Shown piece by piece: positions 2-53,183 of a DNA stretch of 64,000 bases. The notes beneath the pieces were generated by a model. That model did not search any database. It saw only the letters and a list, made by a program, of their open reading frames with translations, and was not told the origin of the DNA. Source of the stretch: an uncultured bacterium. GTDB lineage: Bacteria > Planctomycetota > UBA1135 > GCA-002686595. Each line of letters starts with the position of its first letter. Position 1 is the stretch's first letter. Where the stretch lies: NCBI GenBank assembly GCA_938075305.1, contig CALJGV010000009.1:38096-102095 (forward strand), given 5' to 3'. Position numbers and translations under genes: made by a program.

Positions 2-1363
2 TGCCACCTTTGCAGCGGCGGGACGGGCAACATCACCACGTACTTCCACCCCGAGGCGGCCGCGCTCCTCACCAGCGCGTCCGAGGCCTGTAACCCGGCC
101 ATCTTCGAGGTCCAGGTCACCGCACCCGAGGTCGTCTCTGACCTCTCGCCCACCCAGACCATGATCCAGGCGGTCGTCGGCACTATCGGTTCCGCGACCA
201 TGAACTACCGCCTCGCGGGGACGACGACCTCGACGCCTGTCGCCATGACCCCCATGGGGAGCGGCGCCTTCGTCGCCGACATCCCCGCGGTCCAGTGCGG
301 CCTGACGGTCGAGTACTGGTTCGACATCGACATCGCTGGCATCGGCGCCACCGCTGCCCCCTCTGGCGCTCCGAACGAGTTCTACACCGCGGTCGGCGGC
401 ATCGAGACGGTGCTCTTCGCCGACGACTTCGAGACCAACCAGGGCTGGACCGAGGCCAACCTCGGCGCCAGCTCAGGCGACTGGGAGCGCGGCGTGCCGG
501 TGAACGACCCCAACTGGTCCTACGACCCGGCGTCCGACTACGACGGCTCGGGAAGCTGCTACCTGACCCAGAACCAGGCGGGTAACACCGACGTCGACAA
601 CGGCGCCGTCCAGCTGGTCTCTCCAGCGATCGACCTGAGCGTCCCTGGTTCGACCCTCAGCTACGCGTACTACCTGCGCCTCACCAACGCCAATGGCGTC
701 GACCAGCTGCTCGTCGAGGCGAGCTCCGCCGGCGGCCCGTTCGCCGAGGTGACGCGGCACGACACCGACGGCGGCTCCGACTGGCGCACGGCGACCCTGA
801 CCCAGGCCGACTTCGTCGCCGCGGGCGTGACTCCCGGGCCCCAGGTCCGGCTCCGCTTCACCGCCAACGACGACAACCCGCAGAGCATCGTCGAGGCTGG
901 CCTCGACGCGCTCATGGTCCGCGCCATCGACTGCGGTGCGGTTGGCACTGTCTACTGTGATCCCGCCGCCCTGAACTCCACGGGAAACCCGGCCACCATC
1001 TCGGCCGAGGGCAGCGAGCTGATCGCGGACAACGACGTCACGCTCACCATCGAGTCCCTGCCCCCCAACACGGTGGGCTACTTCCTGACCTCCCAGACCC
1101 AGGGCTTCGTCGCCAACGCCGGCGGGAGCCAGGGCAACCTGTGCCTCGGTGGGAGCATCGGCCGATACATCAGCACGGTGCTCAGCTCCGGGCCTGCGGG
1201 GACCTACTCGCTCCAGCTCGACCTGACCGCCGTCCCCCAGCCCACGGGCTTCGTCGGGGTGACCGCGGGGGAGACCTGGAACTTCCAGTCCTGGTACCGG
1301 GATCAGCTGCTCGGCTTCCCGAGCTCCAACTTCACCGAGGCCATCGAGATCCTCTTCCAGTAG
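2..1363 (+). CDS. C-terminal part of a secreted reprolysin-like metalloprotease (5'-truncated by the window edge)
   Basis: The reading frame is open from base 2, so the gene starts upstream; the ATG at 161 given by the ORF track is internal. The first residues (CHLCSGGTGN...) resemble the Met-turn and end of the M12B-type catalytic domain in the complete paralogue at 18660-20624 (MCSGLGGCNN), so the protease domain probably lies outside the window. After it come a beta-sandwich linker, a MAM/jelly-roll-like domain opening with ADDFETNQGW, and a terminal domain of about 140 residues containing LCLGGSIGRY and ETWNFQSWYRD. That last domain recurs in three other window proteins. The product is probably secreted or surface-bound. 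The protease assignment is inference from similarity to the paralogue because the zinc motif is not visible here. Confidence 0.7.
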   Translation, partial: CHLCSGGTGNITTYFHPEAAALLTSASEACNPAIFEVQVTAPEVVSDLSPTQTMIQAVVGTIGSATMNYRLAGTTTSTPVAMTPMGSGAFVADIPAVQCGLTVEYWFDIDIAGIGATAAPSGAPNEFYTAVGGIETVLFADDFETNQGWTEANLGASSGDWERGVPVNDPNWSYDPASDYDGSGSCYLTQNQAGNTDVDNGAVQLVSPAIDLSVPGSTLSYAYYLRLTNANGVDQLLVEASSAGGPFAEVTRHDTDGGSDWRTATLTQADFVAAGVTPGPQVRLRFTANDDNPQSIVEAGLDALMVRAIDCGAVGTVYCDPAALNSTGNPATISAEGSELIADNDVTLTIESLPPNTVGYFLTSQTQGFVANAGGSQGNLCLGGSIGRYISTVLSSGPAGTYSLQLDLTAVPQPTGFVGVTAGETWNFQSWYRDQLLGFPSSNFTEAIEILFQ

Positions 1364-5738: not shown

Positions 5739-8700
5739 TCAGGGGCGCGATACGCCGAGGACCATCACCTGGCCAGCGGACGGGTCGGTGACGATCACCA
5801 GGTCGCCCGAGGCGACCACCTGCTCCACCGACCGCGCGCCCGTGAGCCATCCGGCGAAGACCGGGGCCGAGGGGTTCGACATGTCGAACGCGGCGACGGC
5901 GCCCGGACCCTCGAGGGCCGCCGCGAGGAACGGCACGCCGCCGGTCTCGCCCAGCGCGATGGACACCGGCCGCACGGCGCTCATGGTCGCCCCGGCGCGC
6001 TGGGCCGAGGGGTCGAGTTCGGCGGCCCGGCCCACGAGGCGCTGCCCCGTCTCCCAGAGCTGCGCGCCGTCCGCGTCCCGGATGCCAATCGACCGCGACC
6101 CGAAGGCGAGGAGCAGGTTGACGAGGCCGTCGCCGTCCGGGTCCGAACCAACGCTCGAGACCATGAGGTCACCGGCATCGGCGGCCTGCTGGAGCTCCAG
6201 GGCCGTGGGGAAGGTCATCGTGTCCAGGTTCAGGTCCCCGACGCGCACGCGCTCGTCGAACCCGGACCCCGACCCAGGGGGCAGGACTCTGGCCACGCCG
6301 CCGTTGGCGAGGGCCACCCGGGTCTCCCCACGATCCTCGAAGGTCAGGAGGTCCAGCGGCTGAACGAGGCCGTGGACCGGGAGCGGCTTGGGATCGAAGG
6401 GGCCCGCGACGCTCGAGGCGTCGAGTCCCTGCGGCTCCAGCTCCACGACCGCGAAGGCCGTGGCGGGCCCGCCGACGCCCGAGAGCACGCCGCTGCCCGG
6501 GGCGGCTGCCGCCTGCTCGAGCCCCGCGCCGTTGTCGAAGGTCACGATGAGGCGGTCCCCCAGAGCGGCGAGCCCGCTGGCGCGGCCGCTGCCGCCCAAC
6601 CCCGCCTCCGAGAGGTCCGCGCGCAGCACCTTGCTCACCGGGAGCACCGGGACCTGCAGCCCCCCGAGCTGGTCCGGCGGGGTGGACTCGAGCTGCGCGG
6701 ACACCGTCGCATAGTCCGCAGGAGACAGGCTCTGAAGGTTCGTCGCCGCGGACAGGTCGAGGGAGTAGACGCCGCGGAACCCCTCGGGGTCGGCGGCGAC
6801 CTCGAGGAGCGCGAGCCCACCGAAGGCCGGGCCGTCGGAGACGCAGAGCCCTTCGACCGCGTGGTCGGCGGCGTCGAGCACGAGGGCATACTCGCCCACG
6901 GTGTTGCCCGTGGCAGCATCGACCTGCAGCAGCCGGATCACGGCCGACGCGGCGGAGGTCGTATCCGCCGCGGTGTCGGGGTTGTCCAGAGGCAGCCGCG
7001 TGGCCGCGGTGAGGAGCCCCGAGACCCCATCATGGGCCAGGGCGCCGAAGCCCCCGAAGCGGCGGCCGAGGCCGAAGTCGAGGTTGGATCGGCGCGTGGC
7101 ATACGCCGCGGGAAGGGTCGGGCTCCCGAGGGACCCGGGGGTCCCGGCCGGGACCACGCGCCGGACCAGCGCCCCGGTCGCGTCGAACTCCCAGAGCCCG
7201 CAACGCCGCGCGTCCGCGAGCCAGAAGCCCCCGGAGGCCACGGCGGCCGCACCGCAGAACCGCGCGCCGAGCGCCGACGCGCCGACCGGGTTCCCGCTCG
7301 TGTCCACCGTGGGCTCGTCCTGGAAGGCGAGCCCCGTGGAGGAGGCGAAGAGGCTCGGCCGGCCCACCACCGGGGCCCCGGCCCCGTCAGAGAGCGGGAG
7401 CTCGGAGATCAGGGAGACCCCGCCGGTCTGGGGATCGACCTCCACGACCCGCACCTGGAGCTGCTGGTCGGGCGCCACCATGGGAAGCTCCAGGGAGAGG
7501 TCGCCGTCCAGATCCACGGGAGCAAGGACCGGCCCCGCTCCGTCGATCACCGTGGCTCGAACCCGGCCGCCCCCCGCGTCCACGGCCGCGACGATCCCGG
7601 TGAAGCCGCCCACCTCCACGGGGTCCCCGGCGGTCGTCGTGAGCTGGGCGGGCGGTGCGCTCCACTGGATACGCTGGCCGCTGGCGAAGGCGCCGGCCTG
7701 GAAGGTCCCCCACCCACGGTCGGCGAGGGGCAAGCACTGGGTTGCAAGCTCCTCGACGGTGTCCACGATCACGAGGGCGTCGTTCTCAGGGCAGGCGACC
7801 CACGCGCGGGTCCCGTCAGCGCTGAGGGCGACAGCGCGGGGGGTGAGCTCCAGGGAGGCGAGGGGGGAGCCGCCGTTGAACCAGCGCACGCCCGCCGCCT
7901 CGAGGACCGCTTCATCCCCGTCGAAGGCCGTGAAGGGGATCGGGGCGACGTCCGTCGACTGGTTCAGCAACGACGGTCCGCCGGGGGGGACCCGGAAGAT
8001 CGTCACGTAACCAAGACCCTCGCCTCCCCCGACGAAGGGGGGGTCACCCGCGCAGGCCACGGCGACCACCAGGCCGTCGGCCGTCACGTCGATCGCCACG
8101 GGGTTGGACCCCACGGACGAAATGGCCAGCTGCGGCGTGAGGGTCAGGGGGTCGATGAACTGAACCCGCCCGGGGTACTCGATGGTCTCGCCACTCCAGG
8201 TGACCACCACCGACCCCGAGGCCCCGCAGTCCACGTCGAGGGGCGGCCCGGGGAGGTATCCGAGCGACGCAGGAGGAGCGCTGATGCTCCCGACCGGGAT
8301 CGGCTTGGTGGGATCGGTCAGATCGAAGACCGCGACCTCCTCGAGGACGGGGTCGATGATGAACACCCGCGCGGTCGCGGAGTGGTAGGCCGATCGGAGC
8401 GCACGGCCGCTGCCCCCGAGGTCGATCGTGGAAAGCACGGTCGGCCCGAGCTGGAGCCGCGGCGCGTCGACCGTGACCATCACCGAGTCGGACCCGAGGG
8501 TCGCTCCCCCGGCGGAGAGGCCGCTGGCCACGAACTCGAGGTCACCGCCGATGTCCGGGGCCAGGAAGCTGATGGCTCCGTCCGGCCCGCCCGGGACGGC
8601 CTCGAGCTGCACTGGGGCGCCGGTGACCTGGGTCCACTGGAAGGACGCCACGCCGTCCCCCTCCACGACCGAGGCCTCGAGGCTGACCCTCGACCGGGAC

Positions 8701-8837
8701 AACGTGGACACGTCCTCCCCCGCGAAGACCGTCGCGGGGGACGGCCCTCCACCATCTCCACCCCCGCCACCGCAGGCCGCGAGGAGGCCGCCAAACCCGG
8801 CGAGGAGAAGAAACTGGTTCGTGCGATGGTCCAGCAT
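5739..8837 (-). CDS. Large beta-propeller-like lipoprotein (1032 aa)
   Basis: N-terminal lipoprotein signal MLDHRTNQFLLLAGFGGLLAACGGGGG with lipobox LLAAC followed by a glycine linker. Residues 35-120 resemble a PKD/REJ-like sandwich (VFAGEDVSTLSRSRVSLEASV ... FQWTQVTGAPVQLE). The remainder is all-beta with repeating blade-like stretches such as VAVFDLTDPTKPIPVGSISAPP, ALSADGTRAWVACPENDALVIVDTVEE and a final VAAFDMSNPSAPVFAGWLTGARSVEQV, matching LVIVD/YncE-type propeller repeats. Probably a surface or periplasmic scaffold or binding protein. It is monocistronic, convergent with nothing, and divergent from the aldolase gene at 8928 across 90 bp. No catalytic motif was recognised, so the specific role is unknown. 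Confidence 0.75.
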   Translation of the reverse strand: MLDHRTNQFLLLAGFGGLLAACGGGGGDGGGPSPATVFAGEDVSTLSRSRVSLEASVVEGDGVASFQWTQVTGAPVQLEAVPGGPDGAISFLAPDIGGDLEFVASGLSAGGATLGSDSVMVTVDAPRLQLGPTVLSTIDLGGSGRALRSAYHSATARVFIIDPVLEEVAVFDLTDPTKPIPVGSISAPPASLGYLPGPPLDVDCGASGSVVVTWSGETIEYPGRVQFIDPLTLTPQLAISSVGSNPVAIDVTADGLVVAVACAGDPPFVGGGEGLGYVTIFRVPPGGPSLLNQSTDVAPIPFTAFDGDEAVLEAAGVRWFNGGSPLASLELTPRAVALSADGTRAWVACPENDALVIVDTVEELATQCLPLADRGWGTFQAGAFASGQRIQWSAPPAQLTTTAGDPVEVGGFTGIVAAVDAGGGRVRATVIDGAGPVLAPVDLDGDLSLELPMVAPDQQLQVRVVEVDPQTGGVSLISELPLSDGAGAPVVGRPSLFASSTGLAFQDEPTVDTSGNPVGASALGARFCGAAAVASGGFWLADARRCGLWEFDATGALVRRVVPAGTPGSLGSPTLPAAYATRRSNLDFGLGRRFGGFGALAHDGVSGLLTAATRLPLDNPDTAADTTSAASAVIRLLQVDAATGNTVGEYALVLDAADHAVEGLCVSDGPAFGGLALLEVAADPEGFRGVYSLDLSAATNLQSLSPADYATVSAQLESTPPDQLGGLQVPVLPVSKVLRADLSEAGLGGSGRASGLAALGDRLIVTFDNGAGLEQAAAAPGSGVLSGVGGPATAFAVVELEPQGLDASSVAGPFDPKPLPVHGLVQPLDLLTFEDRGETRVALANGGVARVLPPGSGSGFDERVRVGDLNLDTMTFPTALELQQAADAGDLMVSSVGSDPDGDGLVNLLLAFGSRSIGIRDADGAQLWETGQRLVGRAAELDPSAQRAGATMSAVRPVSIALGETGGVPFLAAALEGPGAVAAFDMSNPSAPVFAGWLTGARSVEQVVASGDLVIVTDPSAGQVMVLGVSRP

Positions 8838-8927
8838 TCGTTCGCCGTAACCCTATCCCCTCCAGTGCGGCGAGTGTATCCATGGGGGAGATATGACAGC
8901 GACGGCCTCGATCGCCGCCTGACGTCC

Positions 8928-11615: not shown

Positions 11616-14444
11616 TCAGGCGGGCGCGTCGACGCCGTAGAACGTCCCGGGGAACAGACCGTCGCGGGCCTCCCCTTCCTCGACCTTGCGGACCTCCGCG
11701 GCGCAGACCTTGTACTCCGCGGTGTCCGTCACGGGGTCCCCCGCGTCGTTGGTGATCACGTTGGCTCGCGCCTCGAAGAAGTGCAGGGGCATCCAGATGC
11801 AGCGCGGCTGGACCTGGCGTGAGTAGAGCGCCCTGACCCGCACCGAGCCGCGCCGGGTCGAGATCTCGACGAGGTCTCGGTCCTCGATGCCGCGCTTCTT
11901 CGCGTCGCGGGGGTGAATCTCAACCCAGGCCTCGGACTGCTTCGCGTCGAGCCCCGACTCGCGTCGGGTCTGGGTCGCACAGTTGTAGTGGTACAGCGTC
12001 CGCCCGGTCGAGAGGAGCAGGCCGTAGGTCTCGTCAGGGAGCTCCGCCGGCGGGCGATAGTCCACCGCCTGGAAGAGCCCCTTGCCCCGCAGGATCCCCT
12101 CCTCGTGGAGGAAGGTCGTCCCCGGGTGATCTGGGGTCGGGCAGGGCCACTGGAGGCCCGTCTTGGGGAGCTCAACCGTGGCATCGAGCCGCGCGTGGCT
12201 GATCCCGGAGAACTTGTCCGCGTCACGCACGAGCTCGTCGTAGACGTCGGCGGCCGTGTCGAACGACCAGTCCGCGCCGCTCGCGTTGGCGAGCGCGATC
12301 AGGATTCGCCAGTCCTCGCGCGCCTCGCCCGGCGGCTCGACGGCCTTGCGCACGCGCTGAACGCGCCGCTCGGAGTTGGTGAAGACGCCCTCCTTCTCGG
12401 CGAAGACCGACGCGGGGAAGACCACGTCCGCGAAGCGGCAGGTCTCGTTGAGGAAGGCGTCCTGCACCACGACGAACTCGGCGGCGTTCATGCCCTTCTC
12501 GAGCTCCATGCAGTTCGGCTCGGAGAGGACCACGTCCTCCCCCATGACGAAGAGGCCTTTGATGCTCTTGCCCACCTCCTTCATCATCACGTTCAGGTTC
12601 AGCCCCGGCTCGGAGGGGAACGTCGTCCCCCACGCTTCCTCGTACCTGGCGTGGACCTCGGGGTCGTCGACCCGCTGGTAGCCCGGGAGGAAGATCGGGG
12701 TCGCGCCGGCGTCGTTGGCGCCCTGGACGTTGTTCTGTCCGCGCAGCGGGTTCATCCCTGAAGAGGGCTTGCCCAGGTGCCCGGTCATCAGCACGAGGTT
12801 CGCGAGGGCGTAGACGTTGTCCGTGCCGTGCGTGTGCTCGGTGATCCCGAGGGTGTAGTAGATCCCGGCCTTCTCCGTGGTCGCGTACTTACGCGCGACC
12901 CAGCGGATGTCCTCGGCGGAGATCCCCGTGTGCTCCTCCGCCGCCTCGGGCGAGTAGCGCTTCACGGTCTCCCGCACCGCCTCGAAGCCCTCGGTGTTCT
13001 CCGCCACGAAGGTCTCGTCCACGAGGCCCTCCTCGCAGATCACGTGGGCCATGGCGTTCAGCAGCCAGACGTCGCAGCCCGGCTTCAGCTGGAGGTGCTT
13101 CTCCGCGATGGTCGACATCCAGATCTTGCGCGGGTCCGCGACCACCATGGTCGCGCCGCGCCGCACGGCCCGCTTCATCTCCATGGCGATGATCGGGTGC
13201 GCCTCGCTCGTGTTGCTCCCGATCACGAACAGGAAGTCCGCGTTACGGATCTCCCCGATCGAGTTCGTCATCGCGCCCGCTCCGAAGGTGGTGACCAGAC
13301 CGGCCACCGTCGGAGCGTGTCATGTCGCTGCACACTGATGGATGTTGTTCGTCTTGAACACCGCCCGGGATAGCTTCTGCACGAGGTAGTTCTCCTCCAT
13401 CGTGCAGCGCGACGAGCTGACGAAGCCGAGCCCGTTGGGCCCGTGCCGTTCACTGACGCCTTGGAGGCCCGCGGCCGCCACCGAGAGCGCGTTCTCCCAG
13501 CTGGTCGGCACGAGCTCGCCCGCGTCGTTGCGGACCAGCGGGCTCGTGATGCGCTCCTCGTGGTGGATGAAGTCGTAGGCGAAGCGGCCCTTCACGCACA
13601 GGTTGCCGTCGTTCGTGGTCGTGCCCGCGGGCGGGCTGGTGACCTTCACCACCTGACCGCGGCCGTCGTTGGCGTCGGGGTCCACGTTGAGATCGAGCTG
13701 GCACCCGACGCCGCAGAAGTTGCAGGTGCTGCGGACCTTGGTCAGCTCACGCTCCGGCTTCGCCTCGCGCGTCAGGGGCATCTTCTCCCCCATGGCGCCC
13801 GTGGGGCACACGTCGACGCACCCGCCGCACATCTCGCAGGTGGTGTCCATCAAGGACAGCCCGTCCACCGTCGCGATGGTGGTTTCGGCGCCGCGGCCCG
13901 CGAGGGTGATGGCGCTGACGCCCTCGACCTCCTCGCAGTAGCGCGTGCAGCGCGCGCAGGAGATGCAGGTGTCGGCGTTGAAGTGGATGTAGGGGTTGCG
14001 GTCCCCGTCGCGGTTGTCCCGCAGGGACTCCATGAAGCCCCAGTCCCGCGGCGCCTCGTAGCGCGCCGCCATCTCCAGCAGCTCGTTAGGCGCGCCACGC
14101 TCTGCGACCTCGATGTCCTGGGGGTGGTCCGTGAGGTAGAGGGCGAAGAGGGTCTTGCGGTGGCGATCGATCCGCTCCGTCTCCGTGCGCACCTCCGCGC
14201 CGTCCTGGGCGGGGGTCTTGCACGCAGGGAGCAGTCGGCGCTGCCCCTCGACCTCCACCAGGCAGGTCCGGCAGGCGCCCGCCGGCTCCAGGCGCGGGTC
14301 ATGGCACAGGGTCGGGATCTCCGCCCCCGCGCGCTGGGCGACCTCGAGGATCGTCTCGCCCGCCTGGAAGGGCATCTGCCGTCCGTCCACCTGGATGGAC
14401 CTGGCCGGCCGCTTGGGCTGGTCCGGTTCGCCTCGCTCGATCAT
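11616..14444 (-). CDS. fdhA: Formate dehydrogenase alpha subunit, selenocysteine-containing (942 aa; TGA at codon 375 read as Sec)
   Basis: Catalytic molybdenum/tungsten bis-MGD subunit oxidising formate to CO2. The ORF track splits it into 13320-14444 and 11616-13307, but both halves are in the same frame, separated only by an in-frame TGA (13320-13322). Around it the reading is NNIHQCAAT-U-HAPTVAGLVTTFGAGAMTN, which matches the ARV-U-HGPTVA active site of selenoprotein FDHs, with the catalytic His next to Sec. Order of domains: [2Fe-2S] (C47, C58, C61, C75); two ferredoxin clusters (C160/163/166/170 and C203/206/209/213); the FDH [4Fe-4S] (C241, C244, C248, C283); then molybdopterin oxidoreductase and C-terminal dinucleotide-binding domain. 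The NuoG-like segment DHPQDIEVAERGAPNEL lacks the three Cys expected for the His-ligated cluster. It lies 3 bp downstream of its electron-transfer partner. selA/B/C and fdhD are not in the window. Confidence 0.88.
13290..13322 (-). promoter_or_regulatory. Selenocysteine UGA and bacterial SECIS-like hairpin in fdhA
   Basis: On the coding strand UGA is followed by 11 nt, then GGUGGCC-GGUCU-GGUCACC: a 7-bp stem (one G-U pair) with GGUCU in the loop. From my memory of E. coli fdhF, the loop sequence and the distance from the UGA are the same. This is the SelB recognition geometry and lies wholly within the coding frame. Confidence 0.85.
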
Positions 14445-14447
14445 CTC

Positions 14448-16058
14448 TCAGCCCTCCTTGGAGGTCTCCTCTTCGAACGCCTCGGGGAAGTACTTGAGCG
14501 CACTCGTCAGCGGCAGCGGCGCCGCCTGACCCAGTCCGCAGATCGAGCCCTCGTTCATCTGCCAGGCCGCGTCGGCGGCGTTGGCCAGGGGGCCGTCCAC
14601 GTCGTCGCCGCGCGCCTGCCGCTCCACGGACTCGCGCAGGTAGCGCGTCCCGATCCGGCAAGGTGCGCACTGGCCGCAGCTCTCCGCCTCGAAGAACCGC
14701 AGCTGCTGGGCGGCCGCCCAGCGCATATCCACGGTGTCGTTCAGGACCACCACGCCGGCGGAGCCGAGCATGGAGCCGAGGCCGCCGAGGTGGGCGAAGT
14801 CCAGGGGGTCGCCCCGCCGCTCCGCGGGCAGGAACCCCGAGCTGGCCCCGCCGGGGCTGAAGGCCTTCAGCTCGCCGACGTAGCCGCCGGCCGCCTCCAC
14901 GAGCTCGTCCAGCGAGACGCCGAGCGGGAGCTCGTAGGTTCCGGGCTGGCCCACGTGACCGCTCACGCAGTAGAGCTTGGTCCCGGCCTCGGTTCGACCG
15001 AGCCCGCGGAACCACTCACCGCCGCGCTCGACGATCCCCGGGACGCAGGCGATGGTCTCCACGTTGTGGATCAGCGTGGGCTTGCCCCACAGCCCGACCT
15101 CCACCGGGAAGGGCGGCTTGATCCGAGGCATGCCGCGCTTGCCCTCGAGCGCCTCGAGCAGGGCCGTCTCCTCCCCGCAGATGTAGGCGCCGTTGCCCTC
15201 GTGGGTGTGGAAGTGAATGTCGCCGTAGATCCCCGAGGCGTGAGCCTCGTCGATCATCCGCCTGATGATCCCGAGGGGCACCTCGAACTCGCCACGCAGG
15301 TACAGGTAGCAGTCCTTCGCGCCGATGGCGTGCGCCGCGATGGCGAGCCCCTCGAGCACGAGGTCGGGGCGCCGCAGCATGCACTCGCGATCCTTGAACG
15401 TGCCCGGCTCTCCCTCGTCCGCGTTCAGGACGACAAAGCGCTCCTGCTCGGCCTGGCCAGCGACGCCGCGCCACTTGATGTGCGCGGGGAACCCAGCGCC
15501 ACCTCGTCCCTGGAGACCCGCGGCCTCGAGGAGGTCGATGACGCCCTCCGGGCCGAGCTCCGACGCCGCCTTGAAGGCCGCGCCCAGGGGCGCGGCGGGC
15601 TTGCAGAGGTCGATGGCGAGCTCCCCGTCCGCGGCTCCCTCCGGTCCGACCGCTCCGGTCCACTCGGTCTCACCGGGGGCCGCGGCGCTGTCGAGCTTGG
15701 ACCAGTCACTGCCGGCGGCCTTGACGTCATCAACGGTCACGTGCGGCATCGTCCGCCGATCGCGTAGCACGGCAGGCGGGACATCACAGCCGGCGAGGCA
15801 GGAGGCCTCCTCCACCGGAAGGCCCTGGGCCTTCGCAGCGTCGAGCACGTCCTGGGCGCCGCCGAGCAGGCAGCTCAGCCCGGTGCAGACGCGCACCTTC
15901 GCCTCGGAGCGCGAGAGCATGTGATAGAAGCTCCCGATCCCCCAGACGTGCGCCTCGGGGACGCCCGTCTCCCTCGCGATGTCGCGGGCCACGCCCTCGA
16001 GCAGTCCGCCTGCTTCGCGCAGACGGTCGGGTACGGAGGCAGCGTCGTGTCGGCTCAT
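14448..16058 (-). CDS. Formate dehydrogenase NAD-binding subunit, NuoE-NuoF fusion (536 aa)
   Basis: Diaphorase subunit passing electrons from FdhA to NAD(P)+. Residues 1-130 are a NuoE/FdsG thioredoxin-like [2Fe-2S] domain (VCTGLSCLLGGA ... EASCLAGCDVPP, the C-x4-C and C-x3-C pairs). Residues about 170-536 are NuoF/FdsB with the FMN site LQGRGGAGFP, the NAD site NADEGEPGTFKDR, GEETALLEALEG and the [4Fe-4S] motif ESCGQCAPCRIGTRY with a distant Cys in SICGLGQ. In most Fds systems these are two genes. It is first in the operon, with fdhA starting 3 bp after its stop. Upstream (16075-16100) are a hairpin and a CATAAT box. Confidence 0.9.
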   Translation of the reverse strand: MSRHDAASVPDRLREAGGLLEGVARDIARETGVPEAHVWGIGSFYHMLSRSEAKVRVCTGLSCLLGGAQDVLDAAKAQGLPVEEASCLAGCDVPPAVLRDRRTMPHVTVDDVKAAGSDWSKLDSAAAPGETEWTGAVGPEGAADGELAIDLCKPAAPLGAAFKAASELGPEGVIDLLEAAGLQGRGGAGFPAHIKWRGVAGQAEQERFVVLNADEGEPGTFKDRECMLRRPDLVLEGLAIAAHAIGAKDCYLYLRGEFEVPLGIIRRMIDEAHASGIYGDIHFHTHEGNGAYICGEETALLEALEGKRGMPRIKPPFPVEVGLWGKPTLIHNVETIACVPGIVERGGEWFRGLGRTEAGTKLYCVSGHVGQPGTYELPLGVSLDELVEAAGGYVGELKAFSPGGASSGFLPAERRGDPLDFAHLGGLGSMLGSAGVVVLNDTVDMRWAAAQQLRFFEAESCGQCAPCRIGTRYLRESVERQARGDDVDGPLANAADAAWQMNEGSICGLGQAAPLPLTSALKYFPEAFEEETSKEG

Positions 16059-16074
16059 GATGGGTCGGATCGGT

Positions 16075-16100
16075 GCGCCGTTCGGCGCCCCGACATTATG
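16075..16100 (-). promoter_or_regulatory. Leader hairpin and possible -10 box of the fdh operon
   Basis: On the minus strand CATAAT (16100-16095) precedes a perfect GCGCCG-AA-CGGCGC hairpin (16088-16075), 17 nt before the ATG at 16058. No convincing -35 was seen. The hairpin near the start may affect translation. Confidence 0.35.
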
Positions 16101-16172
16101 CGTCGGACGGCCCTGCTCCGCTGGACCAGTCTCGCTGCGGGAGCCGAATCCCCGGAGGTTCTCCGAGCCCCC

Positions 16173-18659: not shown

Positions 18660-20624
18660 ATGCTGTCGATTCTCACGACCCTCGCTCTCGCCGCCGCTCC
18701 CCAAGCGGTCGACCCCATTGGCAGCCTCCAGCGGCTCACCATTCCGACCGACCCCGAGGGCACCGTCGTGATCTCGGTCGAGCTCGACGGCCTGCCCGCG
18801 GACCTCGTCCTCGAGCGCCACTCGCTCCGCGCCGGAGACTTCCAGCTGCTGGTCTCCCGGCCCGACGGATCCGTGGTCCCCATGCCAGCTCCGCGGCCGA
18901 ACACCTGGCGCGGCGAGGTCCCCGGGTGGCCTGACACCATCGTGACCGCGACCATCAACCACGAGGGTCTCTCGGCGGTCGTGGCCGACTACGCCACGGA
19001 CCGCGAGTGGCAGATCCAGCCGGCTGCGGGCCTGCCCGCCGGGACCTACTCGGTGGCGCGCTCCAGCGACCTCCCGGTCACCGGTGGCGTGTGCGGCGTG
19101 GGCAACCAGGTCGGCTTCCAGGACCCCATCACGGGCCCCGCCACCAGCAACCTCGGCACGGGCCTCCAGCTCTGCGAGGTCGCCTTCGACGCGGACTTCG
19201 AGTTCTTCCAGCGCAACGGCAACAGCGTTCAGGCCACGATCGATGACATCGAGCGGATCATGAACCGGGTCGACACGATCTACGTGCGCGACGCGGACGT
19301 GACGATCCAGCTGACGGGCATCGTGGTGCGGAGCACCTCCGCCGACCCGTACACCACCAGCGACGCGGGCCAGCTCCTCGACCAGTTCCGTAACCACTGG
19401 AACCAGAACTTCTCCGGCATCCGCCGAGACCTCGCCCACCTCTTCACCGGCCGTAACGTCAACGGCGGCACGATCGGCATCGCCTACCTCGGGGTGGTCT
19501 GCAGCCAGACCGTCGGCTACGGACTCTCCGAGTCCCGGTTCACCAACAACCTGGTGAACCGCACGGGCCTCACCGCCCACGAGATGGGCCACAACTTCAA
19601 CTCGAACCACTGCGACGGCAACGGGGACTGCCGGATCATGTGCTCCGGCCTCGGGGGATGTAACAACGACGTCTCGCGCTTCGGGACCGCCAGCGCGAAC
19701 GGGATCCGCAACTACGCCATCAGCCGCGGGTGCCTCCTGGACCTCTCCCCGCCCCTGGCCCTGCCTGTGGTGGACGAGTTCCCTGTGACCCAGCTGAACC
19801 GGGACATCTGGATCAGCTTCCAGGGCACGGAGATCACGGACGCAGCCGTCAACGAGCCCTCCGCTCCGTTCTCGATCCGCCTGAACGCGCTGAGCAACTC
19901 CACGCTCAAGGACGACCGGCTGATCTCCAACAAGCTCCTGCTCGCTGGCCTGAACAACGCCTCGGTCTCGTTCTATTCACAGCACCGCGGGGTCCCCGCC
20001 GGGGGCGCTATCGACGTCGAGATCCTCGACGCGAACAACGACTGGATCCTGCTCGAGCGCGTCGTCTCCGACGGTGTCGATGAGAGCAACTTCAACTTCC
20101 ACCAGATCGCAGTGCCCGCCGGCGCGTACTTCGACGAGGCCCAGGTCCGCATCACCGCGGACGTGGATAGCGGCAGCCAGAACTGGTACATCGACGACTT
20201 CGAGGTGTCCGACAACACCTGCGGGGGCGTGTCCAACTACTGCTTCGCCAACCCGAACTCGGTCAGCATCAACGGCGCGAACATCTCCATCCTCGGGAGC
20301 ACCAGCCTCGCGGCCAACGACCTGACGCTCCTGACCGCGAGCTGCCCGACCCTCAGCTTCGGCATCTACATCTTCGGGGACCAGCAGACCCAGGTCTTCC
20401 TGGGCAACGGCTTCCTCTGCGTCAGCGGGAGCCCGGTCTACCGACTGGGCATCGCCCAGGCCGACATCTTCGGGACGAGCTTCCTCACGATCGACAACCA
20501 GAGCCTCCCCGGGGGCCTGATCCTCAGCCCCGGCGACACCTACAACGCGCAGCTTTGGTATCGCGACTCGGTCGGTGCCGGCTTCAACCTCAGCGACGGC
20601 ATCGAGATCAACTTCTGCCCCTGA
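18660..20624 (+). CDS. Secreted reprolysin-like zinc metalloprotease with shared C-terminal domain (654 aa)
   Basis: Exported zinc endopeptidase of the M12B (ADAM/reprolysin) type. Signal peptide MLSILTTLALAAAPQA; pro-region to about residue 170; catalytic domain with TAHEMGHNFNSNHC near residue 305, a HExxHxxNxxH zinc motif with Asn in place of the usual Gly; Met-turn RIMCSGLGG about 20 residues later. After a linker comes a MAM/jelly-roll-like domain (WISFQGTEI ... NWYIDDFEVSDN), then the repeated C-terminal domain (NYCFANPNSVSINGANISI ... GFLCVSGSPVYRLG ... DTYNAQLWYRDS). Cys pairs fit an extracellular protein. It is followed by a strong hairpin and preceded by the structured leader. The substrate is unknown; a predatory or polymer-degrading role is possible. 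Confidence 0.88.
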   Translation: MLSILTTLALAAAPQAVDPIGSLQRLTIPTDPEGTVVISVELDGLPADLVLERHSLRAGDFQLLVSRPDGSVVPMPAPRPNTWRGEVPGWPDTIVTATINHEGLSAVVADYATDREWQIQPAAGLPAGTYSVARSSDLPVTGGVCGVGNQVGFQDPITGPATSNLGTGLQLCEVAFDADFEFFQRNGNSVQATIDDIERIMNRVDTIYVRDADVTIQLTGIVVRSTSADPYTTSDAGQLLDQFRNHWNQNFSGIRRDLAHLFTGRNVNGGTIGIAYLGVVCSQTVGYGLSESRFTNNLVNRTGLTAHEMGHNFNSNHCDGNGDCRIMCSGLGGCNNDVSRFGTASANGIRNYAISRGCLLDLSPPLALPVVDEFPVTQLNRDIWISFQGTEITDAAVNEPSAPFSIRLNALSNSTLKDDRLISNKLLLAGLNNASVSFYSQHRGVPAGGAIDVEILDANNDWILLERVVSDGVDESNFNFHQIAVPAGAYFDEAQVRITADVDSGSQNWYIDDFEVSDNTCGGVSNYCFANPNSVSINGANISILGSTSLAANDLTLLTASCPTLSFGIYIFGDQQTQVFLGNGFLCVSGSPVYRLGIAQADIFGTSFLTIDNQSLPGGLILSPGDTYNAQLWYRDSVGAGFNLSDGIEINFCP

Positions 20625-20681: not shown

Positions 20682-20767
20682 CTCGTCTGCGATGATCCTG
20701 CCGCTGGCGGCCCGCAGGATGTGCTACATCTCTCCCGCAGCGCCGCCTCACCTGCGGCCCATCCCCC

Positions 20768-21346
20768 ATGAAGAAGCTCTCCCTGGTCCTGATCTCCCTC
20801 GCCCTCTTGGCCGGCGCCACCGCCTCCCTCGGCGGCTGCTCCTCGACCATCGAGAACCGCGACCCCTCCGGCGAGCCGTTCCCCTCGGTGGAGGCCACCT
20901 CCCTGGCGGGCGAGACGGTCCGGATTCCCGAGGACTTCGCCGGCGCCCCGGTGCTCCTGCTCGTCGGCTACGTACAGGGCTCCCAGTTCGACATCGACCG
21001 CTGGCTCTACGGGGCCATTGACGCGGATCTGGAGGTCGCCCTCCGGGAGGTCCCCGCCGCCCGGGGCGCCGCCGCGAGCCTCGCCAAGGGCTTCATCGAC
21101 TCCGGCATGCAGCGCGGGATCCCCAAGGACGAGTGGGGCGCGGTCACCACCACCTACGGGGGCGCGGCGGAGGCCATCGGACAGTTCACCGGGACGGAGC
21201 GCCCCCGGAACGCCCGGGTCCTGCTCCTCGACGCCAACGGCATCGTCCGGTGGTTCTACGATCAGGGCTACTCGGCTCTCAAGCTCAAGGGCCTCGAGGC
21301 CGCCCTCGAGGGCGTCACCCCGGCGGCGGACGTCGACGCCGACTGA
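20768..21346 (+). CDS. Lipoprotein with probable thioredoxin-like fold (192 aa)
   Basis: Lipoprotein signal MKKLSLVLISLALLAGATASLGGCSS with lipobox LGGC. The mature part begins like a redoxin/ATP10-type protein: GEPFPSVEATSLAGETVRIPEDFAGAPVLLLVGYVQGSQFDIDRWL, then ends with NARVLLLDANGIVRWFYDQGYS, the usual last strands of a thioredoxin fold. There is no CxxC; the only Cys is the lipidated one, so a classical thiol-disulfide role is unlikely. It lies 25 bp upstream of the oxyR-like gene on the same strand, probably co-transcribed, which hints at a redox-related context. Function unknown. Confidence 0.7.
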   Translation: MKKLSLVLISLALLAGATASLGGCSSTIENRDPSGEPFPSVEATSLAGETVRIPEDFAGAPVLLLVGYVQGSQFDIDRWLYGAIDADLEVALREVPAARGAAASLAKGFIDSGMQRGIPKDEWGAVTTTYGGAAEAIGQFTGTERPRNARVLLLDANGIVRWFYDQGYSALKLKGLEAALEGVTPAADVDAD

Positions 21347-29470: not shown

Positions 29471-31336
29471 TCACGGGCAGGTCTGGATCGCGAGAGCGTT
29501 CGACAGGCCAGGGGAAAGGCCCTGGCTCAGCGCCTGCACCGCGAACTGACCGCTGGAGAGCGCCGTCCATCCAGCGGCACCGGGGTGCCACGGGAGGAGG
29601 GCCGCGCCGCCCGGACCTGCCTGCCCGTGCGCGATCACGCGCCGACCGCCGCCGATGCAGAGGCTCCCCGCAGGCACGCCCATCGGCAGGCCCCGCTGGC
29701 CGCCCACGAGGGCGACGGTGGCGCCGGGCGCCGCGTCGGTCAGCGCGAAGTGCAGGCTGTTCGCTGCCTGCGGCGGCATCAGCTCGAGCTGCGGCGCGCC
29801 GGCTCCCTGGTCGCAGAAGGACACCACGTCGAAGCAAGGACCGGCGCCTTCCAGCGGCACCCGGGTGTAGGGCGCGCTGATCGGGAGCGTGTGGCCATCG
29901 ACGGTGGCTGTGTGGGTGGTGATCAGGTCAATGGTCGTACGACCAGGCTCCAGCGGGATCGAGACGGTCCACGTGCTGCCGCTTCCCGTCATGTCCGCCC
30001 AGTTCTGCTCCGGGAAGAGGTCGTAGAGGTACCAGGACGACCCGTCGGGCCCCCGGTCGTACATCCAGAAGACGCGGCTCTCCTCGGGCTCGCCGCCCTC
30101 GGGGAAGGTCACCGTCACGTCGAGCTCGGCGCCGTTGACGACCGCGGAGATCTCGGGCGTCTCCAGCCCACCCTCGGCCCCGAAGAGCTGCTCCGCGAAG
30201 AACGCGGGGTTGACGCCGTTCGTGGGCGCCTCGGGGTGACCGGTTCGGCTGTGCCCGCCGTTGGGGACGATGTAGGTCCGAAGGCCGGGCAGGATCTTGC
30301 TGGTTTCGGGCACGTCGTAGGCGACCCAGTCGTGGGAGCCCGGGAGGCTGAAGATCTCGACGCCCCGGTCAGCGAGCTGCTCCCAGTTCTCGCTCACGTA
30401 GAGGTCGTCGGTGACGCGGTCGAACGCGGCCTGAATCTCCGCCTCCGTCCAGCCGTAGGCTCGGATCGCCGCGCGGAACGGATCGCCGGACCGGAAGGCC
30501 TTGAGGTAGTAGCTCCACCACTGATCGCCAGCGGGCAGGCCCGCCGCGCGGGCCTGGTCGAAGTCCGCGTCGGCGGCGACGACCTCGGCGACCGCGTCGG
30601 GTTCACCGGCTCGGATCGGGGACAGCGCCGTGAACGCGTGCGTGCTCCGGACCGCCGTGATGCGCTCGTCGTGGATGGACGAGATCAGGGGCGCGATGCC
30701 GTTCTTTGAGTTGCCGTGCGCGATGACCGGACCGGGCTGGATCAGCGAATCGTCGAAGGCCGCGGTGATCGAGCGCATCATGATGGCGCTCCACAGGAAG
30801 TACTCCGAGTAGCGGTAGTCGAGGGTCTCGATGAAGCGGTCCCGCAGCACGGGGTCCGAGGGGAGATCGGGGTAATTGCCGAGCCCGGTGATCAGCGGGG
30901 TGACGACCCCGACGCCGCCGTCAATGGCCAGCGCGGTCCCGTCGCTCACGAAGAGCTGCTGGTCCCCCACAGCTGGGGTCCCCTTCCCTCCGATCACGAA
31001 GCCGCTGGCGGTGCCGGTGAGGGGGACGATGAGCCGGACAGGCACTCGGATCTCCACGCCGGTCCACCAGTGGTCGACATGGATGTCGATGAGCTTCTGG
31101 CGGGTCGTGCCGCCGACGGTGTCCACGTGCCAGTCCTCGAGGACGACCACGTCCAACGTGCTCGCGTCGGTCATGGTCGGCATGTGGAACGGCTCGTCGA
31201 GGGTGGGCCCGCTGAGCTGGACCGAGCCCGTGGCGTCGGAGAACACCGTGTTCTGCGCGAGCGCCACGGGCGTCAGCAGGAAGCCCAGAGCGACGACGCT
31301 CCGCGCAGGGAGAGCGATCAGGATCTTGTTGGTCAT
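29471..31336 (-). CDS. Secreted PhoPQ-activated pathogenicity-related (PqaA-type) alpha/beta hydrolase (621 aa)
   Basis: The start at 31336 gives the signal peptide MTNKILIALPARSVVALGFLLTPVALAQ. The body resembles the PhoPQ_related/PqaA family: a long insertion-rich alpha/beta-hydrolase with VIAHGNSKNGIAP (nucleophile Ser in GNSKNG), GSHDWVAYDVPE (candidate Asp) and VPNGGHSRTGHPEAP (candidate His). A Big-like sandwich follows (VVNGAELDVTVTFPEGGEPEESRVFW). The C-terminal 130 residues (DVVSFCDQGAGAPQLEL ... GSLCIGGGRRVIAHGQAG) are a divergent copy of the secreted C-terminal domain shared by other window proteins. The ribosome-binding site lies in a hairpin. Activity unknown; peptidase-, esterase- or cutinase-like actions are possible. 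Confidence 0.8.
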   Translation of the reverse strand: MTNKILIALPARSVVALGFLLTPVALAQNTVFSDATGSVQLSGPTLDEPFHMPTMTDASTLDVVVLEDWHVDTVGGTTRQKLIDIHVDHWWTGVEIRVPVRLIVPLTGTASGFVIGGKGTPAVGDQQLFVSDGTALAIDGGVGVVTPLITGLGNYPDLPSDPVLRDRFIETLDYRYSEYFLWSAIMMRSITAAFDDSLIQPGPVIAHGNSKNGIAPLISSIHDERITAVRSTHAFTALSPIRAGEPDAVAEVVAADADFDQARAAGLPAGDQWWSYYLKAFRSGDPFRAAIRAYGWTEAEIQAAFDRVTDDLYVSENWEQLADRGVEIFSLPGSHDWVAYDVPETSKILPGLRTYIVPNGGHSRTGHPEAPTNGVNPAFFAEQLFGAEGGLETPEISAVVNGAELDVTVTFPEGGEPEESRVFWMYDRGPDGSSWYLYDLFPEQNWADMTGSGSTWTVSIPLEPGRTTIDLITTHTATVDGHTLPISAPYTRVPLEGAGPCFDVVSFCDQGAGAPQLELMPPQAANSLHFALTDAAPGATVALVGGQRGLPMGVPAGSLCIGGGRRVIAHGQAGPGGAALLPWHPGAAGWTALSSGQFAVQALSQGLSPGLSNALAIQTCP

Positions 31337-31345
31337 GGATTCGTC

Positions 31346-31363
31346 CCCCCTGGTGCCAGGGGG
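31346..31363 (-). promoter_or_regulatory. Hairpin containing the ribosome-binding site of the PqaA-type gene
   Basis: The minus strand reads CCCCCTGGCACCAGGGGGGACGA just before ATG 31336. CCCCCT/AGGGGG pair across a 6-nt loop and AGGGGG is the only Shine-Dalgarno-like sequence, so initiation may be controlled by this fold. Confidence 0.5.
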
Positions 31364-31580
31364 AATGCAGGTGGAGTCGGCGAGTTCGCTGGGGCGCCCG
31401 TACGGACGACGCCTTGAACCGACCTGCTCACCGATGGTTCCGCCCGTCCTGCTCACCCTTGGGGGAACGCCTCGAGCGCCGTCGTCGACGGCGCCCTGCG
31501 ACTTCACCACGCCTGGCCCCGGGGGCGCAGGGGCAGGGCGGCGTCCCCGAGCGGGAGCGACCGACCCGAGCGCGCGCCGC

Positions 31581-49829: not shown

Positions 49830-50471
49830 ATGCGAGGGGACTCACCCAGGAACAGACGGTTCATCAGCTTCGGCGCGATCGCGCTGAGCAGCTACCTCGC
49901 CAGCGCCTGCGGGTCACTCGGAGCAGAGGGCGGAGCCGTGCAGAGCGTGCAGCTCGCCGATCAGATCAAGCGCGTCAACGTGGAGGCCCATCGATCCGAC
50001 GAGACCGTGCAGGCCATGCTCACGCGGCTTCAGCCGATCCTCACCTCCCGCAGTGAGGCCGCCGCCGCCGCGGCCCGGGAGCAGCTGGACGCCGCCACCC
50101 GGGCGTGCCAGCAGCAAGCGCACCAGCTGGAGCAGCAGCTCCCCGGCCTCGACGAGGAAGGGGAGGCCTTCTTCAAGCGTCGCAGGGCGGCCCTCCTCGA
50201 CATCGAGGACCCCGTGCTTCGAGCCGCTGCAGCGGCCAGGCTCGAGGTCGACCTCGAGCACTTCCTGGAGTATCAGGCGTCCGCCGTGGCAGTGCTCGAC
50301 GCCTATGAGGAGTTGAACCTCGAGCTTCACGCGATTCTCGAGGCCCTCCCGGAGCAGCCGGAGCCGAGCGAGCTCACCGAGGAAGCCCTGGACCTGCGCA
50401 ACCAGGCCTGGTCCCTGCGGATGATCCTCGAGGACTGCAAGCGAGCCGCAACCGAACTCAAGGTGCGCTGA
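49830..50471 (+). CDS. Coiled-coil lipoprotein of unknown function (213 aa)
   Basis: The signal sequence RRFISFGAIALSSYLASACGS contains lipobox LASAC. The mature protein is almost entirely alpha-helical and coiled-coil prone, rich in Glu, Ala and Leu (EQLDAATRACQQQAHQLEQQLPGL, EEGEAFFKRRRAALLDIEDPVLRAAAAARLEVDLEHFLEYQ). Its layout recalls DUF2959-type helical lipoproteins, but that is a visual impression only. Two internal Cys. Divergent from the glycosylase gene (155 bp). Role unknown; perhaps envelope-spacing or scaffold. Confidence 0.65.
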   Translation: MRGDSPRNRRFISFGAIALSSYLASACGSLGAEGGAVQSVQLADQIKRVNVEAHRSDETVQAMLTRLQPILTSRSEAAAAAAREQLDAATRACQQQAHQLEQQLPGLDEEGEAFFKRRRAALLDIEDPVLRAAAAARLEVDLEHFLEYQASAVAVLDAYEELNLELHAILEALPEQPEPSELTEEALDLRNQAWSLRMILEDCKRAATELKVR

Positions 50472-50706
50472 GCCCGCGACCCCACCACTCCCTCACCCTG
50501 GGCCCCCAGCGTCTGCTCCACCGCCTCCCGTCCGAACGAACCTCCGTCCAGTCGTCCTTCACCAAGCCAGGGCGCCCGCTGCCGCCTCCGCCGGGCTGGC
50601 ATCGCACGCCTCCGGTCACCTGTCCTGTCCGAGAACCCAACTGCCCTTCCACTGTCCTTCCACCGCCAAGTTTCGATCACTGATCACCTGGGTTGCCATC
50701 ATCACG
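50472..50706. other. Intergenic 235 bp, open in the frame of the next gene
   Basis: No in-frame stop and no ATG/GTG/TTG in the frame of the 50707 gene throughout this stretch. The last 20 codons before 50707 encode a plausible signal-peptide start (KFRSLITWVAII). Confidence 0.5.
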
Positions 50707-51303
50707 GTGTCACTCGCCGTCCCGCTCTTCCTCGGCCCCAACGCGAGCGCCACCTCCTCCAGCCCGACGGTCCTGGTCTCCGACGACGACGACAGCGGTG
50801 GCTGCGGAGGTCACTGCGACCCGACCACGCCCTTCTGCTTCGCCGACGAGAATGACTGCCCCTGCGGGAACAACGACCCGAACGGCGGCTGCGTCAACGC
50901 CTCCGGGCAGGGGTCCTTCATCACTGGCTCAGGCAGCCCCAGCGTCGCCGCGGATGACCTGGTCCTGACGGCCTTCAGCCTGCCGCCGGGGACGTTCGGG
51001 CAGTTCCTGATGGCACGGGGCACCACCCGTCTACCGCTCTCCAACAGCGGTGGACTGCTCTGCGTCGCCCCGCCGTACGGGGAGAAGATCTTCCGCATGA
51101 TGCCGGGACAGGTGAGCAACATGGGCACCTTCGAGGAGGGTCCGGGCATCGTCTCCTTCGCCAAGGCGAACAACGAGCTCCCCATCGGGGAGATCGACCC
51201 CGGCGAGACCTGGTACTTCCAGTCCTGGTTCCGCGACATGGGCGGCCCCTGCGCCGAACTCTCCGGTTCCTCGAACGCGGTCGGCGTGACCTTCACGCCC
51301 TGA
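50707..51303 (+). CDS. Small secreted protein consisting of the shared C-terminal domain (about 198 aa)
   Basis: A GTG at 50707 gives SLAVPLFLGPNASA, a short signal-like segment. The upstream in-frame codons KFRSLITWVAIITV would make a better signal peptide, so a non-standard start further upstream is possible. After a Cys/Asp-rich stretch (DDDDSGGCGGHCDPTTPFCFADENDCPCGNNDPNGGC) comes the domain seen at the C-termini of the 1363, 20624 and 31336 proteins: SPSVAADDLVLTAFSLPPGTFGQFL ... GLLCVAPPYGEKIFRM ... DPGETWYFQSWFRDM. It is effectively a free-standing copy of that domain. Probably cell-surface or secreted; function unknown. Followed by a terminator hairpin. Confidence 0.7.
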   Translation: MSLAVPLFLGPNASATSSSPTVLVSDDDDSGGCGGHCDPTTPFCFADENDCPCGNNDPNGGCVNASGQGSFITGSGSPSVAADDLVLTAFSLPPGTFGQFLMARGTTRLPLSNSGGLLCVAPPYGEKIFRMMPGQVSNMGTFEEGPGIVSFAKANNELPIGEIDPGETWYFQSWFRDMGGPCAELSGSSNAVGVTFTP

Positions 51304-51429: not shown

Positions 51430-53010
51430 TCAGTCCGCGGGAAGAGGGTTCGCCAGCTGGGTGATCCAGTCGTTGTGCGCCATGTAGCGCATGTCAACCC
51501 GCGCGAGGTCAACCTCGGGATCGATCATCACCTGCGACCGTCGCCCGTTGAGCCTTACCCTCGAGCGAACGAAGACCTCCGCACCCGACCAGCCGTCTGC
51601 CTCGGCTCCACCCGCGAGGACCTGGGCGTATTGGCGGATCATGTACGGACGCGTGGCCATCTTCCGGACCTGCCAGTCCTCAAGGCGAGCGGACGGATCG
51701 ACGGTCTGCACCGCGCCGTCAGCGGGGTTCCGAATGATGTACATGAGCTGCCCATCCTTGCCCCGGAGCTTCATGTGCCACGAGAAGCGGTGCCCCTCTT
51801 CCGTCCAGTGCACCACGCCTGGGATGAGGTAGTGCCGCAGGGGAATGAGCGACTGTGATGCCATCCAGAGGACGACACAGAGCGTGATCAGTCGCGTCCC
51901 GCGCGCGCGCGTCACCCCCTCGGGCGCGGGCCCGCCGGGGTTCCGCTCGTCGTGCATGGCCGGAAACAGGCTCCAAGCGATGACCATGCCTGCGAGCGCC
52001 CCGACGCTGGACGGGACAAAGGTCCAGTCCCCCCTGAAGGCCGCGGCCATCACGGCGCCCAGGGCGGCGCCAAGGAAGGCAGCGATGCTCCGGCCCGAGA
52101 GCTGTCGGAGGTCACCCACGAGCCGCCGAGGCCAGTCCGGCGGGAAGAAGATGGTCGTGACGGCCATCATCGTCCACGGGAAGATCCCGATGTTGAAGAG
52201 CCGCGTGTTGGTGAAGTGGAACGCAACGAGCACCACGAACATCACCACGCGCGTCCGGCGCCACAGCAGCAGCGGCACCGCGAGCAGGTCGATCAGGACG
52301 CCGGAGTAGCTGAAGAAGTAGGCCGTGAAGGGGTGGTGGAACGTCTGGCCGATGACCGGGAAGTCATCCCGCGACGCGAGCCAGTAGCGCATCGGCGAGC
52401 CGTGCAACCAGTCGCTATTGAGCTTGGCGATGCCGCCGAAGAAGTATGGAACGCCGACTTGGAACCGCAGGAGCCAGAGCGCCCAGGCTGGCGCGGTCCT
52501 GCTGCGGAGCGCCGGCTCGAAGCGGGCGTCCACCGAGAGGCTCCGGTTGGCGGGGACGATCGCCAGCAGGAACGTGAGCAGGCAGACCAGGTAGAAGTGG
52601 TTCAGGTACCGCGCCTCCTCGAGGAGGAACACGTACGTGAAGGCGAGGCAGAGCAGGGCGGCGCTCAGCCGGTACATCAGCCCGATCATGACGCAGAACG
52701 CCATCGCCCCCAGGAAGATGAAGTGGTAGTACATCCCATCCCCCGGCCACGGCCTGACCCACTCGAAGAGGGGATAGGGGAAGTTGTACGAGGGCTCGAT
52801 GAAGTAGCGCTCGACCCAGCCGTACCCGTAGTAGCGGGTCACCTCCCAGACCATGATCGCGCCGAACGCGATACGGAAGAACACCAGGCTGCTGATGTCG
52901 ACCCGCTGGTGCAGCGCGCGATGAGCGCGCTCCAGCCACCCGCCGCCGGCCGCCGCAGGGGGCGAATCGGTGACCGGACCGGATGGGTCGGGGGCTTCCT
53001 TGCTGGACAT
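51430..53010 (-). CDS. HTTM / vitamin-K-dependent gamma-carboxylase-like membrane protein (526 aa)
   Basis: Integral membrane protein with a HTTM domain. RVDISSLVFFRIAFGAIMVWEVTRYYGYGWVERYFIEPSYNFPYPLFEWVRP at residues 35-88 and ARYLNHFYLVCLLTFLLAIVPANRSLSVDARFEP, FQVGVPYFFGGIAKLNSDWLHGSPMRYWLA, VAFHFTNTRLFNIGIFPWTMMAVTTIFFPPDWP are strongly HTTM/VKGC-like. About ten TM segments and a soluble C-terminal beta domain of about 150 residues (HLKLRGKDGQ-type region) follow. Family members carboxylate glutamates (animals) or have unknown bacterial roles. Transcribed divergently from the MarR gene; promoter region 53011-53183. Confidence 0.85.
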   Translation of the reverse strand: MSSKEAPDPSGPVTDSPPAAAGGGWLERAHRALHQRVDISSLVFFRIAFGAIMVWEVTRYYGYGWVERYFIEPSYNFPYPLFEWVRPWPGDGMYYHFIFLGAMAFCVMIGLMYRLSAALLCLAFTYVFLLEEARYLNHFYLVCLLTFLLAIVPANRSLSVDARFEPALRSRTAPAWALWLLRFQVGVPYFFGGIAKLNSDWLHGSPMRYWLASRDDFPVIGQTFHHPFTAYFFSYSGVLIDLLAVPLLLWRRTRVVMFVVLVAFHFTNTRLFNIGIFPWTMMAVTTIFFPPDWPRRLVGDLRQLSGRSIAAFLGAALGAVMAAAFRGDWTFVPSSVGALAGMVIAWSLFPAMHDERNPGGPAPEGVTRARGTRLITLCVVLWMASQSLIPLRHYLIPGVVHWTEEGHRFSWHMKLRGKDGQLMYIIRNPADGAVQTVDPSARLEDWQVRKMATRPYMIRQYAQVLAGGAEADGWSGAEVFVRSRVRLNGRRSQVMIDPEVDLARVDMRYMAHNDWITQLANPLPAD

Positions 53011-53183
53011 GGGGAGTGTCTCGGGGGTGAACGCAGATCGGGGCGCGCGTTCGACACGCTGGCACCCCGTTGGGCCTGACCGGAGCGGGCGCGGCGATGC
53101 GGGCGTCCGCTGCCGTCACCGGCCCGGGAGGCTGAGAGCATTAGTCTTACGAGCGAAGCGTTGGATTCACGGCCCCCGAACCT

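Follow-up and report, generated by a model that had tools for sequence, protein, structure and literature searches.

The window analyzed here, a stretch of 64,000 nucleotides from an uncultured planctomycete, encodes several secreted proteins that end in a similar way. An earlier note on this DNA described four such ends as copies of one domain attached to unrelated enzymes, and proposed an anchoring, sorting or secretion module by analogy with T9SS and PEP-CTERM signals. The locus thus raises the questions of whether the four ends form a single domain, how far this domain extends beyond the window, and what it does at the C-terminus of exported proteins.

Four copies of a C-terminal domain in the window

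The first gene (2–1363, + strand) encodes a secreted metalloprotease of the M12B (reprolysin) type, of which the window covers the C-terminal half. The gene begins outside the window, and the full open frame of 864 aa, read from the contig (G000:C9:36864-39455), contains a signal peptide and a Reprolysin_5 match (E 5.3e-23). Copy 1 of the domain, a core form of 137 aa identified by alignment, occupies positions 950–1360 (+) up to the stop codon. A second secreted M12B reprolysin of 654 aa, assigned from its translation and Pfam (18660–20624, +), ends in copy 2, a divergent form that also reaches the stop codon (20238–20621, +). Copy 4 (50887–51300, +) is a divergent form of a "CPCGN" subtype and is nearly stand-alone: the translated open frame in which it lies (50425–51303, +; GTG start at 50707 or upstream) holds little beyond a linker and the domain, which again extends up to the stop codon. 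Copies 1, 2, and 4 were themselves members of the genome-search profile, which they match with E-values of 2e-62, 4.8e-31, and 2.3e-32, respectively; copy 1 alone as query also retrieves copies 2 and 4 (single-sequence E 5.2e-9 and 6.0e-10).

The remaining copy is more distant. The exported protein that carries it (29471–31510, −; translation and Pfam) had been taken for a PqaA-type hydrolase, a label that we could not sustain, as no Pfam family matches it at E ≤ 1. Its end, copy 3 (29474–29848, −), finishes with LSNALAIQTCP at the stop codon. The core profile misses this copy in its own genome at E 0.01, and a direct comparison with the core profile gives no signal. Against a profile of divergent copies, hhalign yields a probability of 62% (E 7.6e-5) over 99 columns, collinear to the final residue. 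The predicted model (pLDDT 75, pTM 0.71) is all-beta and its strands follow a similar order, but it is not independent because its alignment included family members. From the profile comparison and the model, copy 3 probably belongs to the superfamily of this C-terminal domain as a distant member. The four-copy claim therefore stands for copies 1, 2, and 4, clear members by alignment, profile, and single-sequence search, and becomes a probable assignment for copy 3.

The nearly stand-alone gene is adjoined, in convergent orientation, by a gene for a protein with HTTM and vitamin K-dependent gamma-carboxylase lumenal domains (51433–53115, −). Elsewhere in the window (11619–16172, −), NuoE/F-like and NuoG-like genes are followed by a molybdopterin oxidoreductase frame that is split from its N-terminal part at ~13320, possibly by a frameshift, or possibly as two genes.

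An undescribed domain concentrated in one planctomycete family

We refer to the domain of copies 1, 2, and 4, in its core and divergent forms alike, as CTD-I; it is an unnamed C-terminal domain of ~135 residues. A profile search of the window's own genome (4.42 Mb, 90% complete, sampled by locus) gave 95 matches, a number that excludes chance in a genome of this size. In 32 aligned copies, residues N9, G21, G62, L64, C65, G84, G107, W115, R117, and D118 are invariant. Family scans with hmmscan covered these 32 core copies against Pfam and the four carriers together with 23 divergent copies against NCBIfam. Neither these collections nor PDB sequences contain a family that matches CTD-I or the second domain, CTD-II, described below; a reading of either as a known domain was dropped, and no match to a characterized enzymatic domain, the outcome that the earlier note had named as contrary to its proposal, was found. 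A viral origin was likewise abandoned, as phage records gave no match and viral folds none at E 0.001. Literature searches, with most subscription papers outside their scope, revealed no description of CTD-I or CTD-II.

The window's genome and that of Planctomycetes bacterium Poly30 (CP036434.1), a strain of Saltatorellus ferox, fall into one genus. The other genomes of this genus contain at least 67 CTD-I copies each, with 101–474 candidates per genome by profile. Relatives in named genomes were sought with a profile built from 12 close copies; the nearest copies in other species are 86–99% identical to one query copy, and further copies reach at most 72%. Over a sample of 392 Planctomycetota genomes, the core-form profile finds 18 genomes of the window's family and five scattered others, the latter with a single copy each. 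The divergent-copy profile finds 45 genomes; 26 of these belong to other families and mostly contain between one and a few copies (a per-genome count reaching 10 in this sample means at least 10). CTD-I is thus confined mainly to one Planctomycetota family, which includes Saltatorellus ferox Poly30, in agreement with the earlier view of a module "of this lineage". A 64%-identical copy occurs in a MAG labelled Gemmatimonadetes (L082, JAHECL010000105.1), on a contig of 7.6 kb with a coverage of 1.9 that is probably a mis-binned planctomycete contig.

Position, export, and cargo

A profile search had been expected to find the domain always at the C-terminus of exported proteins, and this is largely what we observe. 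In the window's genome, 91 of 94 matches (90 distinct genes) end 0–6 residues ahead of the stop codon; this count enters one gene twice, as the window copy and within a longer locus, and leaves out one non-significant second stretch. One more match reaches the frame end, although its profile alignment halts earlier, and the exceptions are C4:6642-7043 and C5:2101, the latter a short frame. The loci sampled from related genomes contain 98 CTD-I ends, of which 96 lie within six residues of the frame end. None of the carriers examined has two copies in one frame.

Two of the deviating genes have a distinct layout. The frame at L150:907-1905 (G000:C4:6642-7043) encodes a signal peptide, the CTD, and a further 112 residues that include a CIICH motif of cytochrome-like type; the domain is N-terminal here. 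In Poly30, a long frame (L101:8210-10414) has an internal copy close to its start, with a hydrolase-like region after it.

A crude rule detects Sec signal peptides in 77 of 93 carriers. Of the 661 long frames without the domain in these loci it selects 136, a rough control that includes spurious frames. Inspection adds about ten more, which brings export signals to ~87 of the 93 CTD-I ORFs; carriers that lack one are truncated frames or have unclear starts, among them the 50425–51303 protein.

The earlier note had called the carriers unrelated. In the window this is only partly so: its "partial protease" is itself an M12B reprolysin, and two of the four carriers therefore belong to the same enzyme class. 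Genome-wide the description is accurate, since the N-terminal parts of 91 carriers match 55 Pfam families. Among the 25 of these families that are listed, all are of extracellular type, including M12B, S8, M14, sulfatase, GH16, endonuclease I, FG-GAP, LamG, and lectins. Nine carriers contain GBD_T9SS_assoc, a Pfam domain named after T9SS cargo. The carrier genes are scattered and show no strand or operon bias (74 of 142 neighbors on the same strand), and the idea of an operon partner was discarded on this ground.

Two exported proteins of the window without the CTD, encoded at 5742–8852 (−) and 20696–21343 (+), have lipobox-like N-terminal cysteines (LLAACGGG, SLGGCSS), and the former contains a choice-of-anchor I domain. 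Judging by these sequence features, exported proteins here may be either lipidated or CTD-tagged.

Predicted structure and the possibility of a binding module

The AlphaFold2 model of copy 1, computed from 51 sequences, is all-beta (pLDDT 94.5, pTM 0.89), and confidently predicts an Ig-like beta-sandwich. The best Foldseek matches are Ig-like ester-bond adhesin repeats (4ni6, 8f90; E 4e-4, TM 0.33–0.46, sequence identity 8–16%). These have the general sandwich in common with CTD-I but are repeats of other bacteria's adhesins, and the model points to a sandwich of the general Ig-like kind, for which the search gave no closely related solved structure. With TM below 0.5, the ester-bond or isopeptide domain suggested by Foldseek was rejected. 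A small outer-membrane beta-barrel anchor was considered because the last strand resembles the BAM beta-signal and 138 residues could give eight strands; the confident sandwich model contradicts it. Of 93 copies, 81 have the full cysteine pair (profile positions 2 and 64), and the two copies without the second cysteine also lack an aligned first. This co-loss, seen in only these two copies, fits a Cys3–Cys65 disulfide, which probably forms.

Fold, cargo, and distribution all bear on the main rival to a sorting function, in which CTD-I would be a surface-retention or matrix-binding module: its carriers would leave by general secretion (e.g., type II) and the domain would bind a lineage-specific glycan, S-layer, or exopolysaccharide. 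Ig-like sandwiches are typical of binding modules; the best fold matches are adhesin repeats; the carriers comprise surface enzymes and adhesion-type proteins; and the family-restricted expansion would suit a lineage-specific surface polymer. Binding modules, however, are commonly internal, N-terminal, or in tandem, whereas CTD-I meets the stop codon in all but three of the 94 matches and never appears twice in an ORF. Furthermore, no CBM or lectin family matches it. We consider this reading rather unlikely, while retaining it as the main rival.

A second, homologous domain and the distribution of exosortase

The cargo domain PF23759 has a CTD-I end in CTD-I-rich genomes and a different end in G039, which belongs to a sister family within the order. 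Searching with the C-terminus of the G039 cargo led to CTD-II, a second unnamed C-terminal domain, which ends in ...SNxLxxxI at the stop. An iterative search from CTD-II seeds drifted into CTD-I and was excluded as evidence; instead, two separately built profiles were compared. The divergent CTD-I profile matches CTD-II with an hhalign E-value of 5.9e-10, in an alignment that spans 117 of 130 columns; with the alignment made by the tool, the value is 6.9e-10. Among the controls, 40 column-shuffled profiles gave 0.0097 at best, a reversed profile 0.21, and an unrelated beta domain 0.53. The core CTD-I profile reaches only 0.0064, so the link between the two domains runs via the divergent copies. 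On this profile evidence, we regard CTD-I and CTD-II as homologous and as parts of one larger superfamily. CTD-II occupies a similar position: 29 of 35 matches, a count in which a few loci overlap, end 0–6 residues from the frame end, 27 of these in stop-closed frames, and three loci hold internal copies.

CTD-II is the prevailing form elsewhere in the order and in those members of the window's family that lack CTD-I. Genomes of families f2, f3, f4, f6, f7, and f8 have between 54 copies and 69 or more, and those of f5 have 7–19. Within the window's family, nine CTD-I-poor genomes have 15–66 copies and 28 CTD-I-rich genomes 0–22. The CTD-II densities per Mb of the two groups separate fully (U = 0, p 9e-6), and exosortase is found in 3 of the 28 CTD-I-rich genomes versus 7 of the 9 CTD-I-poor ones (Fisher p 3.5e-4), p-values that are descriptive and overstate the evidence because genomes of one family are phylogenetically non-independent. 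The window's genome has no exosortase.

This exchange of one domain for the other is difficult to reconcile with a structural cap, or a folding or protease-resistance domain, that has no targeting role and spread by shuffling and duplication. A small conserved domain with a conserved cysteine pair and one nearly stand-alone copy would suit such a function, and the identity values of the nearest (86–99%) and further (≤72%) copies fit vertical inheritance along with the cargo. Yet stabilization alone would not explain why the domain occupies a single end in 55 unrelated families, or why a homologous type takes its place wholesale in sister genomes, which makes this explanation improbable.

Comparison with known sorting systems

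The T9SS CTD is an Ig-like C-terminal sandwich that acts as an outer-membrane translocation signal (PMC4804311). Like CTD-I, T9SS CTDs (types A, B, and C; PF18962, PF13585) are found on many unrelated Sec-exported proteins, end at or near the stop, and are encoded by scattered genes with overlapping cargo, including GBD_T9SS_assoc. CTD-I differs from them in its length of ~135 residues, its conserved cysteine pair, its W.RD motif, and its occurrence in Planctomycetota rather than Bacteroidota. The CTD copies scanned against Pfam and NCBIfam leave the T9SS CTD models PF18962/TIGR04183 (type A) and PF13585/TIGR04131 (type B) unmatched. The PorU-type C25 peptidase is absent from the window's genome (90% complete) and from seven of the eight other genomes of the genus, and is present in 9 of the 37 family genomes. 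Membership in T9SS fails on both the sequence models and PorU. A SprA_N profile matched none of the 37 genomes, but no control genome either, and so had no positive control. If CTD-I were a divergent sorting domain of an unrecognized T9SS, this would account for the cargo types, position, and fold class that it shares with T9SS CTDs, and for its GBD_T9SS_assoc partner. This is nevertheless the least probable reading, highly unlikely given the unmatched models, the sparse PorU, and the description of T9SS CTDs as Bacteroidota-restricted (PMC10202324).

PEP-CTERM, the partner of exosortase (PF09721), is also a C-terminal signal on many exported proteins per genome that is recognized by its end position. 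It consists, however, of a short motif, a transmembrane helix, and a basic tail, whereas CTD-I is predicted to be a folded soluble domain with neither helix nor tail and with a beta-strand at the stop, and most CTD-I-rich genomes have no exosortase. GlyGly-CTERM/rhombosortase and LPXTG/sortase follow the same many-to-one tag logic, but their tags are short and tripartite, unlike CTD-I, which has no hydrophobic helix or basic tail.

The proposed analogy thus agrees with T9SS in position, fold class, and cargo, and with PEP-CTERM only indirectly, through the pattern of mutual exclusion with exosortase. The secretion gene that had been expected to accompany the domain did not emerge from the three candidate families profiled (C25/PorU, SprA_N, the latter lacking a positive control, and exosortase), none of which co-occurs with it.

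A proposed sorting and surface-delivery tag

More than 90 different exported proteins have one domain placed exactly at the C-terminus, which points to a system of protein delivery that has not been described. We favor, with a probability of about 0.6, the reading of CTD-I as a C-terminal sorting and surface-delivery tag that is analogous to T9SS signals but stands outside T9SS. The cargo would exit the cytoplasm by Sec, through the N-terminal signal peptide seen in the sequences. A dedicated receptor or translocon of the periplasm or outer membrane would then recognize the folded Ig-like CTD with its putative disulfide, move the protein to the cell surface, and probably retain it there. Recognition would require a free C-terminal end, which may be why the last beta-strand meets the stop codon in nearly all copies. 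A few internal copies speak against a sorting tag, and C-terminal binding modules can also be widespread.

CTD-II would serve an equal function in the rest of the order. From the distribution of the two domains, the Saltatorellus family appears to have largely switched from CTD-II, together with exosortase, to CTD-I. More tentatively, and with somewhat less than even odds, the Planctomycetota of this order may sort proteins at the outer membrane by an undescribed pathway that resembles T9SS in its logic but has independent components, in which CTD-I and CTD-II would be recognition domains that have replaced each other between lineages and about 100 to several hundred exported proteins would be tagged per genome.

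Implications for the planctomycete cell surface

The cell envelope of planctomycetes is unusual, and shape-shifting has been noted in the Saltatorellus clade (PMC11481906, PMC11032199). The literature searched gives no account of how the many exported proteins of these planctomycetes reach and stay on the surface. A domain on ~100 exported proteins per genome could serve as bait for the missing machinery, and naming it would provide a family name for a large set of C-termini that are unannotated in Pfam and NCBIfam. As a natural experiment, the contrast of CTD-I, CTD-II, and exosortase among close genomes lends itself to partial phylogenetic profiling, by which exosortase was discovered (PMC1569441).
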